Part shown: one piece after another, positions 37,903-44,949 of the stretch
How positions within the stretch are numbered: the stretch's first letter is position 1
Layout of the letters: each line of letters starts with the position of its first letter
Assembly (NCBI RefSeq): GCF_004366375.1
Contig: NZ_SOEF01000015.1
Coordinates: 9,115-64,512, forward strand
Reading direction: 5' to 3'
DNA: 55,398 nt
Source: Halanaerobium congolense
GTDB taxonomy: Bacteria; Bacillota; Halanaerobiia; Halanaerobiales; Halanaerobiaceae
The notes under the pieces: model-generated
Seen by the model: the letters and a program-made list of their open reading frames with translations, nothing else
Databases searched by the model: none
What the model was told of the DNA's origin: nothing
Made by a program: the position numbers and the translations under genes

Positions 37903-38913
37903 ATGCAAACTCCTCACGACAGGTTTTTTCAAGATATGTTCGACAAAAAGATTGTCGCAGAAGAATTTATCAAAAATTATTTGCCTCAGGAATTGTTAGA
38001 ATTGATTGATATGGATAAGTTGGAGATTTCAAAAAAATCATTTGTTAGCAAACATTTAAGAAAATATTTTTCAGATGTTGTTTATAGGGTTCAATTAAAT
38101 AAACATAATGCCTATGTATACTGCCTTTTTGAACACAAGAGTTATCCCGACAAAGATGTTTCCTTTCAACTTCTCAAATATATGATTCGGATCTGGGAAC
38201 ATCACCAGGATCATTATGATGAAGAACAGCTGCCGTTAGTAATCCCCCTCTTGATTTACCATGGGGAAAAGAGGTATAATATAGGTAAGAGATTTAACTC
38301 AATGATCAATACTCAGCCGAATACTGAAAAGTTCATTCCAGACTTTGAATATTTGCTTTTTGACTTTTCTAAGTATAGTGATCTGGAGATTATAGGAAGT
38401 ATACAGTTACAAATAGTTTTAAAAATACTTCAAACTAGCTTTATTGATAATAATTATGATAAAATATTTACTGACATATTAAAGTTGATCAAAAAATTGA
38501 ATGATACTAAGACTATTTTAGAATATTTCACAACAGGAATGGAATATATTCTAGAAATTAAGGATTATGATTTTGATATTATGCATGATAAAGTTAATTT
38601 AATCATCCCCGAAAGGAGTGAGACTTTCATGTCTACAGCTAATAAATTGCGTGAAGAGGGTAAATTAGATGGAATTAAAAAAGGGATTAAAGAAGGTAGA
38701 AAAGAAGGAATGAAAGAGGGTAGAAAACAGGAATTAATTGAAACTATTTCAATCTTAATAAAGGATAAACTCCCAATAGATAAGCTTCCGGACAATCTGG
38801 AGAGTAAACTTAATAAATTAGATTTAATTGTTTTAAGAGAAATTCGCACTGATTTATTAAAGGATATTATAAACATTGAATCACTTGAAGATTTAGAAGA
38901 ATACTTAAACTAA
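37903..38913 (+). CDS. Rpn family recombination-promoting nuclease
   Basis: 336 residues, Rpn/PD-(D/E)XK putative transposase family: HDRFFQDMFDKKIVAEEFI, then VVYRVQLNKHNAYVYCLFEHKSYPD (nuclease core with the D-x-EHK-type residues) and LLKYMIRIWEHH. Rpn proteins are DNases that promote RecA-independent recombination. The C-terminal tail has EGIK/GRKEG repeats (GIKEGRKEGMKEGRKQELIE), typical of the family. It has its own promoter and terminator and begins the plus-strand block. ATG 37903 follows AGAGGTTAG. Confidence 0.85.
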   Translation: MQTPHDRFFQDMFDKKIVAEEFIKNYLPQELLELIDMDKLEISKKSFVSKHLRKYFSDVVYRVQLNKHNAYVYCLFEHKSYPDKDVSFQLLKYMIRIWEHHQDHYDEEQLPLVIPLLIYHGEKRYNIGKRFNSMINTQPNTEKFIPDFEYLLFDFSKYSDLEIIGSIQLQIVLKILQTSFIDNNYDKIFTDILKLIKKLNDTKTILEYFTTGMEYILEIKDYDFDIMHDKVNLIIPERSETFMSTANKLREEGKLDGIKKGIKEGRKEGMKEGRKQELIETISILIKDKLPIDKLPDNLESKLNKLDLIVLREIRTDLLKDIINIESLEDLEEYLN

Positions 38914-38944
38914 AGAGCAGACTTTTCTGCTCTTTCTTTTTTTA
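38914..38944 (+). terminator. Terminator of Rpn gene
   Basis: AGAGCAGA / TCTGCTCT 8-bp stem, CTTT loop, then a T-rich run. The same hairpin follows both AAA genes at 40658 and 42408. Confidence 0.88.
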
Positions 38945-39015
38945 GTTATTCTTCATCGACATCTACCCCAGCCAAAAAAGACAAATCCTTATTGATTTTT
39001 TCTTCTGCAGTTTAA
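38945..39015. repeat. Captured tail of the 42452 gene, copy 1
   Basis: The minus strand of this stretch encodes KDLSFLAGVDVDEE and stop, the expected C-terminus of the gene at 42452-42718. It is followed on the plus strand by the AAA promoter. The same tail recurs at 40690-40755. Confidence 0.7.
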
Positions 39016-39044
39016 TTGATAATCAATAAAATTTAAAGTATAAT
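39016..39044 (+). promoter_or_regulatory. Promoter of first AAA gene
   Basis: TTGATA, a 17-base spacer, TATAAT (39039-39044). The same promoter precedes the second AAA gene at 40759-40787. Confidence 0.78.
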
Positions 39045-39067
39045 TAATTTAACTTGGAGGTGGATTT

Positions 39068-40654
39068 ATGCAAAATATTGGAATTGATCTTGCTGATTTT
39101 GAATATATTAGAAAAAATAATCTTATTTATGTAGATAAAACTGAATTTTTATATAAAATAGTATCTGAAAACAAATATTATTTCCTATCACGCCCTCGAC
39201 GTTTTGGTAAAACCCTTTTTGTTGACACTCTAGAAAAATTCTATCAGGGCAAAAAAGACCTTTTTGAGGGGCTTTATATCTCAAACCAGGATTTGGATTG
39301 GGAAAAGCATCCAGTTATTAGACTGGACTTCAATGAAATAATATCTCAAACTACTGAGCAATTAAAAATCGTACTTACCGAAAAATTAATTGATTATGCT
39401 AATCAATATAATCTTGAACTGACCTCAACTTATGTGCCTACTAAATTTAACGAATTAATAAAAAAAATCTCAAAAAAAACTAAGCATGGAGTTGTCTTAT
39501 TGGTAGATGAATATGATAAACCAATATTATCTCATTTTGGAGTAATTGAAGGCTCTATAAATAAAATTAGAACTGCCCGTGCCAATCAAAATTTTTTGAA
39601 ATTAGTTTATGATAATTTAAAACCACTTGAGCCCTATCTGGAAAAGGTTTTTATAACAGGAGTCACAAAATTTAGTAAGTTATCGATATTTTCGACCTTA
39701 AATAATCTAATTGAACTTGATCAAAATGAAAAATTTGCTGAAATAATGGGTTATACAGAAAAAGAATTAGATGAATATTTTAGTCCCTATTTTTCTAAAC
39801 TTGCAGAAAAAAATAATTTAACTATCCCTGAATTCAGAAATAAATTTAAACAAATGTATAATGGCTTCCGTTTTACAGAAAAAGACAGTCGAGTCTATAA
39901 TCCTTTTTCTGTAGGCAATGCATTAAAAAATTCTCGATTTGATAACTACTGGTTTGAAAGTGGAACACCTACCTTTTTGGTTGAATTAATTAAGAATAAA
40001 AACTTTGATCTCAGTAATTTAGAAAATATAGAAGTTGGAAAAAATGAAATAAAAGCTTATGATATAGGTAATATACAAATAATACCTCTTCTTTTTCAAA
40101 CAGGTTATTTAACAATCAAAGAAATTGAAGATCAGGTAATATATAAACTTGATTATCCTAACTATGAGGTAGAAAATAGTTTCAATCTAAATCTGGCGAA
40201 ATCTTTTTCTCAAAACAAAATTACAGTTCCAGTTGTACATCGGCTTAAAAAATTATTAATTAACAAAGAATTAGAAAAATTCATCCAACAGATTAAATCA
40301 ATATTTTTCAGTCTGGTTAATATCAATATTCCAAAATCGCTTCAGGATAGAGAAGCTTATTACAACAGCCTCTTTTATCTGATAACTACTTTATTAACAG
40401 ATAACAATTTAAATGTTTATTCGGAAGTACTAACCTCTGAAGGAAGAATAGATAGCACAGTTGAAACTGAAACTGATATTTACATTATAGAATTTAAGGC
40501 AAATCAAGATGCTGAGATAGCTTTAAAGCAAATAAAAGATAAAAATTATGCTGAGAGATTTAAAATTAAAGACAAAAAATTAGTTTTAATTGGTATCAAT
40601 TTCGACACTGAAAAAAGAAATATAAAAGATACTAAAATTGAAGAAATAGATTAA
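39068..40654 (+). CDS. AAA-ATPase-like / PD-(D/E)XK protein (DUF1703), copy 1
   Basis: 528 residues. The N-terminal AAA-ATPase-like domain has YVDKTEFLYKI, a modified P-loop SRPRRFGKTLF and Walker B VVLLVDEYDKPIL, then KVFITGVTKFSKLSIFSTLN. The C-terminal DUF1703 PD-(D/E)XK domain has EGRIDSTVETETDIYIIEFK. The family is found in many copies in anaerobes and is often mobile or defensive. ATG 39068 has GGAGG 7 bases upstream. It forms a tandem pair with the next gene; the closing domains are nearly identical in DNA, while the central part differs. Confidence 0.85.
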   Translation: MQNIGIDLADFEYIRKNNLIYVDKTEFLYKIVSENKYYFLSRPRRFGKTLFVDTLEKFYQGKKDLFEGLYISNQDLDWEKHPVIRLDFNEIISQTTEQLKIVLTEKLIDYANQYNLELTSTYVPTKFNELIKKISKKTKHGVVLLVDEYDKPILSHFGVIEGSINKIRTARANQNFLKLVYDNLKPLEPYLEKVFITGVTKFSKLSIFSTLNNLIELDQNEKFAEIMGYTEKELDEYFSPYFSKLAEKNNLTIPEFRNKFKQMYNGFRFTEKDSRVYNPFSVGNALKNSRFDNYWFESGTPTFLVELIKNKNFDLSNLENIEVGKNEIKAYDIGNIQIIPLLFQTGYLTIKEIEDQVIYKLDYPNYEVENSFNLNLAKSFSQNKITVPVVHRLKKLLINKELEKFIQQIKSIFFSLVNINIPKSLQDREAYYNSLFYLITTLLTDNNLNVYSEVLTSEGRIDSTVETETDIYIIEFKANQDAEIALKQIKDKNYAERFKIKDKKLVLIGINFDTEKRNIKDTKIEEID

Positions 40655-40657
40655 ATT

Positions 40658-40687
40658 AGAGCAGACTTTTCTGCTCTTTCTTTTTTT
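40658..40687 (+). terminator. Terminator of first AAA gene
   Basis: AGAGCAGA / TCTGCTCT stem with CTTT loop and a T-run; duplicate of the hairpin at 38914. Confidence 0.88.
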
Positions 40688-40689
40688 AT

Positions 40690-40758
40690 TATTCTTCATC
40701 GACATCTACCTCTGCTAAAAAAGATAGATCCTTATTGATTTTTTCTTCTGCAGTTTAA
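40690..40758. repeat. Captured tail of the 42452 gene, copy 2
   Basis: The minus strand encodes KDLSFLAEVDVDEE and stop. Differences from copy 1 lie mostly at third codon positions, which suggests that the tail was under protein-level selection before it was captured. Confidence 0.7.
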
Positions 40759-40787
40759 TTGATAATCATTGAATTTTAAAGTATAAT
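40759..40787 (+). promoter_or_regulatory. Promoter of second AAA gene
   Basis: TTGATA, 17-base spacer, TATAAT (40782-40787); copy of the promoter at 39016. Confidence 0.78.
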
Positions 40788-40811
40788 TAATTTAAGCTGG
40801 AGGTGTCAAAG

Positions 40812-42404
40812 ATGAAGGATATTACTGTTTCAAAAGCCAATTTTGAAGAAATAATAAAAGATGATTTTATTTATGTAGATAAAACCGAGTTTTTATATAA
40901 AATTATAAGTAGTAGAGAACCATATTTTTTTCTCTCTCGACCGCGACGCTTTGGCAAAACTCTTTTTGTAGATACTCTAGAAAAATTCTATCAGGGTAAA
41001 AAAGAACTTTTTGAAGGGCTTTATATCTTTAATCAAGATTGGAATTGGGAAGAACATCCGATTATTAGACTGGATTTTAATATGATACCTTCAGAAAACA
41101 GAGAAGTTTTAAATAAAAGTTTACAAAAGATTTTTAGTAAAATTGCTGCCAGATATAATATCGACCTAATAGTTGAAGAAGCATACTATATGTTTCCAGA
41201 GTTAATAGAAAAGCTTTATAATAAATTTGATCAGGATGTTGTCATTTTAATCGATGAATATGATAAACCTATAATTTCTAATCTTAAGTCTCCTTTAAAA
41301 GAAAACAACGCTAATTTTAAAGTTATAGACGAAAATCAGGATTATCTTAAAATGCTTTATGACTATTTAAAACCACTTGAAGGCTACTTAGAAAAGGTTT
41401 TTATTACAGGTGTATCTAAGTTCAGTAAGTTATCTATATTTTCAACTTTAAATAATTTATTTGAAATTGATCAAGAAAGTAAATTTGCTGAAATAATGGG
41501 TTATACTGAAGCAGAATTAAATAAATATTTTAAACCACATTTTGCTAAACTCGCAGAAAAAAATGGTTTAACTATCTCAGAATGCAGAAAAAAATTCAAG
41601 CAAATGTATAATGGTTTTCGATTTACAGAAAAAGATAGTAGAGTTTATAATCCTTTTTCAGTCGGCTCCGCTTTAAAAAATACTAGATTTGATAATTACT
41701 GGTTTAAAAGTGGGACCCCTACTTTCCTAATAGAATTAATTAAGAAAGAAAATTTTCAGATTACTAATTTAAACAATCTGGAAGTTAATAAAAATAAGTT
41801 AGATGCGACTGATATTAAAAAACTTAAACTTATTCCCTTATTATTCCAAACTGGATATTTAACAATTAAAAAAATTAAAAACAAAGAAATTTATAAACTT
41901 GGTTATCCTAATCTAGAAGTTGAAAAAAGTTTAACTCAAAATATTTTAGATGAATTTACTAATGAAAAAATTGAATTACCCCTTATCTACTATATTAAAA
42001 AATCACTTATAAATAAAAATCTAGAAAAATTTATAGAACAGATGAAATCAATATTTGCAGGCCTGGTTAATATTAATATTCCAAAATCTCTTCAAGAACA
42101 AGAAGCTTATTACAACAGCCTCTTTTATCTGATAACTACTTTATTAACAGATAACAATTTAAATGTTTACTCAGAAGTCCTAACATCTGAAGGAAGAATT
42201 GATAGCATAATTGAAACTGACACTAATATTTATATTATAGAATTTAAGGCAAATCAAGATGCTGAGATAGCTTTACAGCAAATAAAAGATAAAAATTATG
42301 CTGAGAGATTTAAAATTAAAGACAAAGGAATAATTTTAATAGGCACCAATTTTGACACTGAAAAAAGAAATATAAAAGATATTAAAATTGAAGAAATAGA
42401 TTAA
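40812..42404 (+). CDS. AAA-ATPase-like / PD-(D/E)XK protein (DUF1703), copy 2
   Basis: 530 residues, a paralogue of copy 1 with the same layout: YVDKTEFLYKI, P-loop SRPRRFGKTLF, Walker B VVILIDEYDKPII, KVFITGVSKFSKLSIFSTLN and the C-terminal EGRIDSIIETDTNIYIIEFK nuclease core. Divergence is greatest in the segments after the P-loop block and before the nuclease, and DNA identity is very high over the nuclease. ATG 40812 is chosen because GGAGG lies 8 bases upstream; a GTG three codons earlier overlaps that site. Confidence 0.85.
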   Translation: MKDITVSKANFEEIIKDDFIYVDKTEFLYKIISSREPYFFLSRPRRFGKTLFVDTLEKFYQGKKELFEGLYIFNQDWNWEEHPIIRLDFNMIPSENREVLNKSLQKIFSKIAARYNIDLIVEEAYYMFPELIEKLYNKFDQDVVILIDEYDKPIISNLKSPLKENNANFKVIDENQDYLKMLYDYLKPLEGYLEKVFITGVSKFSKLSIFSTLNNLFEIDQESKFAEIMGYTEAELNKYFKPHFAKLAEKNGLTISECRKKFKQMYNGFRFTEKDSRVYNPFSVGSALKNTRFDNYWFKSGTPTFLIELIKKENFQITNLNNLEVNKNKLDATDIKKLKLIPLLFQTGYLTIKKIKNKEIYKLGYPNLEVEKSLTQNILDEFTNEKIELPLIYYIKKSLINKNLEKFIEQMKSIFAGLVNINIPKSLQEQEAYYNSLFYLITTLLTDNNLNVYSEVLTSEGRIDSIIETDTNIYIIEFKANQDAEIALQQIKDKNYAERFKIKDKGIILIGTNFDTEKRNIKDIKIEEID

Positions 42405-42407
42405 ATT

Positions 42408-42432
42408 AGAGCAGACTTTTCTGCTCTTTTTT
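42408..42432 (+). terminator. Terminator of second AAA gene
   Basis: Third copy of AGAGCAGA-CTTT-TCTGCTCT, followed by TTTT. Confidence 0.85.
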
Positions 42433-42451
42433 AATTATTCCGCATCGACAT

Positions 42452-42718
42452 CTACCCAGCCAAAAAAGACAGATCCTTATTGATTTTTTCTTCTGGTAAA
42501 AGCTCCATTTCATCATTATCAATTATTAGAGCTTTTAAATTACTTAATTTAACATGCTTTGTTCTTTTCTGCCATCTCTCTCCAATTTTGTGTTTCTTTA
42601 TTTGATATAGAATTCCTTTTTCTGGATTATGAGCAGCAATATCAAGCCAATCTCTTGTTTCTTTTTCAGTTAATAATTCAATCTTAATTGTTTTATCTAA
42701 AATAATTATTTCATCCAC
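42452..42718 (-). CDS. Unrecognised 88-residue protein with shortened C-terminus
   Basis: It starts at GTG 42718 (MDEIIILDKTIKIELLTEKE) and ends KDLSFLAG and stop. The captured tails at 38945 and 40690 read FLAGVDVDEE or FLAEVDVDEE, with GGGGTA where this copy has GGGTA. One base is therefore missing here and the protein ends six residues early in a new frame. I do not recognise the family. The middle (HKIGERWQKRTKHVKLSNLK) is basic. A fragment with QEKFNNILDE just upstream (42722-42757) suggests a lost partner gene. Confidence 0.5.
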   Translation of the reverse strand: MDEIIILDKTIKIELLTEKETRDWLDIAAHNPEKGILYQIKKHKIGERWQKRTKHVKLSNLKALIIDNDEMELLPEEKINKDLSFLAG

Positions 42719-42756
42719 CTACTCATCTAGTATATTGTTGAATTTTTCCTGGATTT

Positions 42757-42782
42757 GACCCTTCTCGGGGCAAGCCCACGAG
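42757..42782. mobile_element. IS200/IS605-type end relic
   Basis: TCTCGGGGCAAGCCCACGAGG can form a hairpin and closely matches the tnpB tail at 55312-55332 (CTCGGGGCAAGCCCTCGAGG). It is probably the right end of an IS200/IS605 element left after deletion; no transposase is next to it. Confidence 0.45.
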
Positions 42783-42895
42783 GTTTGCAAGCAGACTTTC
42801 ACTCTATCACGATGAAATATTATTAAATTCATTATAATCTATAATTTTATATTCATACTCAATAATCTTTTGGTATTTCTATAGATTAAAACAAA

Positions 42896-43978: not shown

Positions 43979-44037
43979 ATAATTAGTAAGATAATTCTTT
44001 AATCATTTTGAAAAATCAAATGTGAGGAATGATATTA

Positions 44038-44229
44038 ATGAAAAAAATGAGCAGCAAAGAAATCGACGAGATTATAGAGAATGTTAAAGCATCATTAGCA
44101 GTAGAAAATATTAAAGTTGATAATATTAGTGTCATTACTGGAAAAAAATATTTAAATGGTGAAATTTCAAGCAAAGAAGCAATTGATAGTATTACTGAAT
44201 ATATAAGAAACAAACAACTGAGACAATGA
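44038..44229 (+). CDS. VbhA-type antitoxin of Fic
   Basis: 63 residues. The inhibitory helix carries (S/T)xxxE(G/N) as SLAVEN, followed by ISSKEAIDSITEYI. VbhA-type antitoxins block Fic AMP-transferases by placing this Glu in the active site. ATG 44038 follows GAGG by 10 bases. The Fic start overlaps its end (ATGA). The partner is broken, so this is an orphan. Confidence 0.8.
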   Translation: MKKMSSKEIDEIIENVKASLAVENIKVDNISVITGKKYLNGEISSKEAIDSITEYIRNKQLRQ

Positions 44230-44656: not shown

Positions 44657-44822
44657 TGTTTTAAAAAATTGACAATCCAGGTTCTATAGCTGAATTAATT
44701 TTCAGCAAAAGTTCCTCTCCTACGCGTTTCCCAAATCTTTTTTCAGTCCATCCAGATCATCAATATTAAAAACTGATATTATATCATTCTAAATATAATT
44801 AATAAAGAAAGGATAATCTCAA

Positions 44823-44915
44823 ATGAAAAGAATGAGCAGCAAAGAAATTAAAGAGGCAATAGAAAATGTCAGGGCATCAATATTAGTGGCAAATCTATGT
44901 TTATATCCATTTTGA
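44823..44915 (+). pseudogene. Second, truncated VbhA antitoxin
   Basis: 30 residues (MKRMSSKEIKEAIENVRASI, then LVANLCLYPF and stop), clearly a copy of the gene at 44038. The inhibitory Glu is replaced by Ala (SILVAN versus SLAVEN) and the rest is lost where an IS end begins. Between 44657 and 44822 no gene is seen. Confidence 0.7.
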
Positions 44916-44949
44916 TATCCGGAACTGATGCCAGAAACATATAATTCAA

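Follow-up and report, generated by a model that had tools for sequence, protein, structure and literature searches.

How does a gene come to be repeated in tandem together with the 3' end of a different gene that faces it? This question is raised by a locus of Halanaerobium congolense, lying between positions 38914 and 42495 of a 55,398-nucleotide stretch of DNA (the window; contig NZ_SOEF01000015.1, positions 9,115 to 64,512), in which two AAA-ATPase genes of the DUF1703 family (AAA1 and AAA2) are each preceded by a terminator hairpin (T) and the last codons of a convergent gene, here called X. The initial annotation proposed that the unit of terminator, X codons, promoter and AAA gene repeats twice, that a third terminator and tail belong to the real X gene, and that a defined amplification mechanism uses the 3' end of this neighbour. 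We conclude that the locus is quite probably a small tandem array of DUF1703 AAA/nuclease genes, assembled and rearranged through homologous recombination at short repeats, and the findings do not call for a new kind of system. The features concerned are listed below, G004 being one of the same-genus genomes compared further on.

37903 to 38913, plus strand: Rpn-family gene (Transposase_31, YhgA-like; Rpn1), PF04754 E=5.5e-61, TIGR01784 Rpn family
38914 to 38944, plus strand: terminator hairpin T1 after Rpn, AGAGCAGACTTTTCTGCTCT and a T run, fold -13.4 kcal/mol, z -3.6
38946 to 39007, minus strand: orphan X tail 1, in frame over about 20 sense codons and a stop, gene body absent, allele CAGCC
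39008 to 39067, plus strand: AAA1 promoter segment, left end of the AAA unit, with TTGATA (39016-39021), 17 bp and TATAAT (39039-39044), boxes picked by eye
39068 to 40654, plus strand: AAA1, AAA-ATPase_like and PDDEXK_9 (DUF1703 family), 528 aa, PF09820 E=2e-56, PF08011 E=6e-20
40658 to 40688, plus strand: terminator hairpin T2, fold -11.2 kcal/mol, z -3.4
40689 to 40750, minus strand: orphan X tail 2, allele CTCTGCT, common to both array tails of G004
40751 to 40811, plus strand: AAA2 promoter segment, 98% identical to the G004 promoters
40812 to 42404, plus strand: AAA2, AAA-ATPase_like and PDDEXK_9 (DUF1703), 530 aa, PF09820 E=3e-54, PF08011 E=8e-18
42408 to 42430, plus strand: terminator hairpin T3, fold -17.3 kcal/mol, z -6.4
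42435 to 42718, minus strand: X, ImmA/IrrE-like (Peptidase_M78) gene remnant, N-terminal half including HExxH gone, tail frameshifted
42720 to 42830, minus strand: remnant of the Xre C-terminus (Xre precedes X in relatives), interrupted by a putative dispersed repeat of ~55 bp

The repeated element is a block of 94 bp, the T-tail, that consists of the terminator hairpin and the last ~20 codons of X. Its three copies (38914-39007, 40658-40750 and 42408-42495) follow Rpn, which reads toward the first of them, AAA1 and AAA2 respectively, and are spaced by 1744 and 1750 bp, in agreement with the twofold unit and the period of about 1.74 kb first described. Once aligned they show pairwise identities of 91.7-94.4%; the 41-nt tail core has 88-98% ungapped identity to the reference copy and the hairpin 84-100%, T1 and T2 being identical across 31 bp. 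The hairpin (AGAGCAGACTTTTCTGCTCT followed by a T run) has fold z values from -3.4 to -6.4 in the three copies. A 154-bp query against the whole genome recovered copy 2 (E = 4e-57) and copy 3 (E = 8e-29) and no fourth T-tail, nothing else being better than 5.7e-5; the repetition far exceeds chance. We discarded the idea that the hairpin is a rare and unique site, since its exact stem, whatever the 6 bases of the loop, is found at 5 places of the genome, 3 of them here.

The joint between tail and promoter falls on the same base in copies 1 and 2, which enter the AAA promoters at 39007/39008 and 40750/40751 with the junction TTCTTCTG/CAGTTTAATTG (also given as TTCTTCTG/CAGTTTAATTGATAATCA). Copy 3 enters the body of X at 42495/42496, with the junction TTCTTCTG/GTAAAAGC. 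In G004, another species, the T-tail is joined to the AAA promoter, as TTCTTCTG/CAG, at the base used twice in the window. The repeat unit is real, as first described, and independent insertions without a common junction are not what is seen in these two genomes. Since the base is the same in the window, twice, and in G004, the joint between X tail and AAA promoter would most simply have arisen once. Carriage by a virus or phage was rejected, the junction 30-mer being absent from IMG/VR contigs.

The third copy of terminator and tail is present as proposed, but the minus-strand gene to which it is attached is not intact. What remains open of X is the frame at 42452-42718. By alignment, X in the window is without ~490 bp that are present in three relatives, HExxH included (the joint reads ..KTIK/IELL..), and a 1-bp deletion in its tail brings an early stop at 42452-42454. 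X in the window is therefore a pseudogene; its reading frame is kept in the two orphan tails and frameshifted in its own tail. Intact X is found after an Xre regulator in three same-genus genomes (G001, G004 and G009) as a protein of 265 aa (264 in G009) with HELYH as its HExxH motif and a Peptidase_M78 domain (for the 265-aa orthologue, PF06114 E=4.5e-10 and PADLOC PDC-M69B E=1e-52). These Xre and X genes match the PADLOC candidate defence pair PDC-M69A/B, an Xre and ImmA/IrrE pair, which is not found in the window, where X has no HExxH and Xre is a remnant. Within this Xre remnant, a sequence of ~55 bp (CTTCTCGGGGCAAGCCCACGAGGTTTGCAAGCAGACTTTCAC..., 42752-42810) has 26 matches in the genome including itself, several at contig ends, and is either a dispersed repeat or the end of an insertion element.

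The search covered 11 same-genus genomes, and informative forms of the locus turned up in four of them (G001, G004, G007 and G009), with other numbers of AAA copies. In G001 and G009 there is no AAA gene at the site, and Rpn (broken by an insertion in G009), T-tail and the convergent X-Xre follow without interruption. The array of G004 has at least two copies with the same junction as the window: the C-terminus of an Rpn gene (Rpn2) is followed by T-tail, AAAa, T-tail, AAA2 and T, and then directly by an Xre remnant; its last AAA has its own terminator and no tail after it, and the intact X-Xre pair lies upstream of the array. Copy number is a minimum here because the array holds an assembly gap of 98 N (L031:12722-12819) with the same promoter and start sequence on either side, which may hide an extra AAA copy or reflect overlapping contig ends. 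In G007 a single AAA (79.6% identical to AAA1) with its own T and no tail stands in place of Rpn, immediately after the stretch found ahead of Rpn in the window; its junction is a different one, its unit starting within 1-2 bp of the left end seen in the window and G004 next to different sequence. A relative with exactly one tailed AAA copy was not found.

More distant homologues were also considered. Neither the remaining AAA genes of the genus (41-55% identity, with a match of only a 137-residue fragment in G003) nor the distant homologue on contig C7 of the same genome (29%) have a T-tail in their flanks, and we thus rejected the T-tail as a general trait of the AAA family. AAA relatives outside the genus, from a wide scan of genome contigs, reach at most 42-49% identity and are useless for junctions.

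The alleles of the tails and the mosaic structure of the genes tell how the copies have been exchanged. Two main tail alleles occur: CAGCC, in window copies 1 and 3 and in the Rpn-linked X of G001 (with TAGCC, a near variant, in X of G009), and CTCTGCT, in window copy 2 and both G004 copies. Also, the bases ahead of the hairpin mark the upstream gene, being TAAAGAGC after Rpn and ATTAGAGC after AAA. Exchange points can accordingly be placed in the hairpin and in the distal tail: window copy 3 has an AAA-type start and an X-type tail, which points to exchange in or just after the hairpin, and copy 1 has an X-type tail and an AAA promoter, which points to exchange in the distal tail. In G004 all differences between the two copies lie in the first 11 bases of the block; from there through the tail they are identical. 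Within the genes, at DNA level, window AAA2 is 98.7% identical to G004 AAA2, and window AAA1 82.4% identical to G004 AAAa. In codons 70-430, 170 sites separate the two AAA2 genes from AAA1, G004 AAAa and the G007 gene; the same split is found at only 3 sites in the first 70 codons and at 3 sites in the last 100. At silent positions, AAA1 and AAA2 agree in 81/90 cases over the last 100 codons, against 176/268 over the rest of the gene (p=3e-6, for a region picked after inspecting the data). Constraint was rejected as the cause of these similar 3' ends because the pair of G004 AAAa and the G007 gene shows no rise in similarity there (83-87% against ~91%), which argues for exchange among array members. 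Exchanges are thereby placed in the terminator, in the tail and at the ends of the AAA genes, and such tracts and mosaics at the repeats are those of an array subject to homologous recombination.

From these states, joints, alleles and mosaic, which are observed directly, we infer the following order of events and a role for RecA. At the founding step, an AAA unit would have inserted into an X copy, or taken the place of its body, by an illegitimate joint, leaving the X 3' end behind. The AAA gene has its own T-type hairpin, so that the order Rpn, T, tail, AAA, T places direct repeats of ~22-30 bp on both sides of the tail and AAA. The hairpins that close Rpn and AAA are near-identical, so that their two T elements could undergo unequal crossing-over, which would give an array with T-tail-AAA as its period. 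It predicts exactly the form of G004, T-tail-AAA-T-tail-AAA-T, in which the last T is not followed by a tail. The window form may then have arisen by recombination of such an array with an Rpn-T-tail-X locus, the last T pairing with the T of an intact T-tail-X on the right and the first tail recombining with the native tail on the left. The Xre remnant of the window and that of G004 break off at an identical base, which suggests that the two share a single right flank, and therefore that larger deletions or exchanges would also have taken place in the region. A unit bounded by direct repeats with the same junction in each copy, and a copy number that varies from 0 in G001 and G009 to at least 2 in G004, are as expected of a tandem array formed by homologous recombination at direct repeats. 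The best reading of the orphan tails is that of a recombination scar that hitch-hikes with the unit and also provides extra homology, without function in the cassette. Several points weigh against this history: no pair of strains catches a crossover in action, the order of events comes from a comparison of four species, no homology is visible at the founding joint between X tail and AAA promoter, and the 98-N gap makes the copy number of G004 uncertain. Besides, the left end of AAA lies within 1-2 bp in two contexts, the X tail in the window and G004 and the Rpn upstream region in G007, a coincidence that plain illegitimate joining does not require.

Among the alternatives, stepwise decay is rather unlikely. 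It supposes an ancestral tandem of modules, each a gene and terminator facing X-Xre, so that each AAA once faced a complete X-Xre and all X but the last were deleted, leaving their tails. A decayed X tail after the Rpn2 terminator of G001, and the Xre remnant on the right in G004 and the window, are in line with it and indicate that more than one X-Xre copy once existed. However, deletions would have to stop exactly at TTCTTCTG/CAG for each AAA, and one joint that recombination then copied is the simpler account. Next to Rpn2 of G001 lies an AbiEii toxin gene (L032:6488-7267), with the decayed X tail at L032:7275-7352; AbiEii seems to be another gene that replaced an X copy in the region.

Still less probable is a discrete mobile AAA cassette, with AGTTTAATTGATAATCA as its left end and the terminator as its right end, inserted beside terminators by a recombinase acting in trans, the X tail being part of an attachment site in an integron-like array. 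The left end common to two contexts speaks for it, as does a tyrosine recombinase of 187 aa that G001, G004, G007 and G008 have at one border of the region, at a distance of 0.5-20 kb (L034:6880-7443, L104:11621-12181, L105:3965-4525 and L106:10506-11066). Yet no sequence similar to the T-tail or the junction lies beside this recombinase, nor do repeats common to the genomes; there is no target duplication and no fixed right end, the G004 array finishes with T and no tail, and a search of the genome and of 60 relatives at E<=1e-3 brought no further instance of the junction. Conservation stops at the stop codon of the recombinase, which seems to mark the edge of the variable region. Neither a recombination site common to the cassette ends and the recombinase gene, as in integrons and other site-specific systems, nor the inverted repeats at the unit ends or a transposase domain in AAA1 or AAA2 of a transposon were found. 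A stricter version, in which a cassette with fixed ends enters the 3' ends of convergent genes through a recombinase in trans and restores the target tail each time, is highly improbable and is retained chiefly because the left ends in G007 and in G004 and the window coincide; if it were true, a defence-gene array would grow while its neighbour stays unbroken. The dedicated amplification mechanism first envisaged is not borne out, as the junction is not linked to any recombinase site or gene, AAA exists without the tail (in G007, at the last G004 copy and in the distant genes of the genus), and alleles and mosaic fit homologous recombination between repeats. That the tail was retained for a function, within the 3' UTR or terminator of the AAA transcript or as an antisense element, is likewise highly improbable: orphan tails do hold the X frame that X itself has lost, but the G007 AAA and the last G004 AAA have no tail, the hairpin alone is already a terminator, and recent copies would be expected to keep a frame of 20 codons intact.

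With regard to the proteins, AAA1 and AAA2 are 69% identical (an alternative GTG start of AAA2 at 40803 would give 533 aa), and both have an N-terminal PF09820 and a C-terminal PF08011 domain above the Pfam gathering scores, which places them in DUF1703. They are predicted ATPase-nucleases (AAA-PD-(D/E)XK) and, judging by family and neighbourhood, probably anti-phage or toxin-like nucleases; the array sits in a hypervariable region of defence and toxin-antitoxin genes. Rpn genes have been described as phage-defence toxin-antitoxin genes-within-genes (PMC10327210), YhgA-like nucleases with an intragenic antitoxin, RpnS (PMC10327210; PMC5350276). Here Rpn is the gene upstream of the array and stands outside the AAA unit, having only its terminator in common with it. 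Within it, an ATG behind AGGAG (gaaaggagtgagactttcATG) would yield a separate C-terminal protein (38630-38913), like E. coli RpnS; in G004 essentially only this C-terminal part (94 aa) is kept, separately, before the array (L031:10507-10791). Further along the window, the start of a small open reading frame occurs in two related copies (78%; 44037-44216 and 44822-44918, MKRMSSKEIKEAIENVRAS... in relatives), the second broken; relatives have one intact copy.

Parts of this arrangement are known from other systems. Families of DUF1703 paralogues with recombination among members were described in Cardinium (cCpun) (PMC6387759), alike in two-domain architecture, paralogue expansion and exchange; that family counts at least 25 divergent paralogues, whereas the window has only two, closely related and arranged in a locus-specific tandem that carries a common 94-bp scar. 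As in RecA-type tandem amplification, the period is bounded by direct repeats (terminators of ~22-30 bp, then T-tails of 94 bp) and gain and loss of whole units is predicted. In contrast to plain amplification of this type, the 3' end of a convergent gene forms part of the repeats here, and protein identity between the copies is down to 69%, with homogenised ends. Integron cassette arrays share the row of promoter, gene and terminator units, the toxin-antitoxin and defence setting and, in the relatives, a tyrosine recombinase at the border, but here no attC-like site was found, no integrase is tied to the junction and recombination tracts reach into the genes.

The locus is thus a worked example, with mapped junctions, of tandem genes whose centres diverged while their ends were homogenised. 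It also brings a caution, as gene tails found between tandem paralogues may be recombination scars and not functional parts. A common intrinsic terminator and a scrap of a neighbour's 3' end can serve as the homology through which a predicted defence nuclease gene grows in number, is transferred and is re-sorted.

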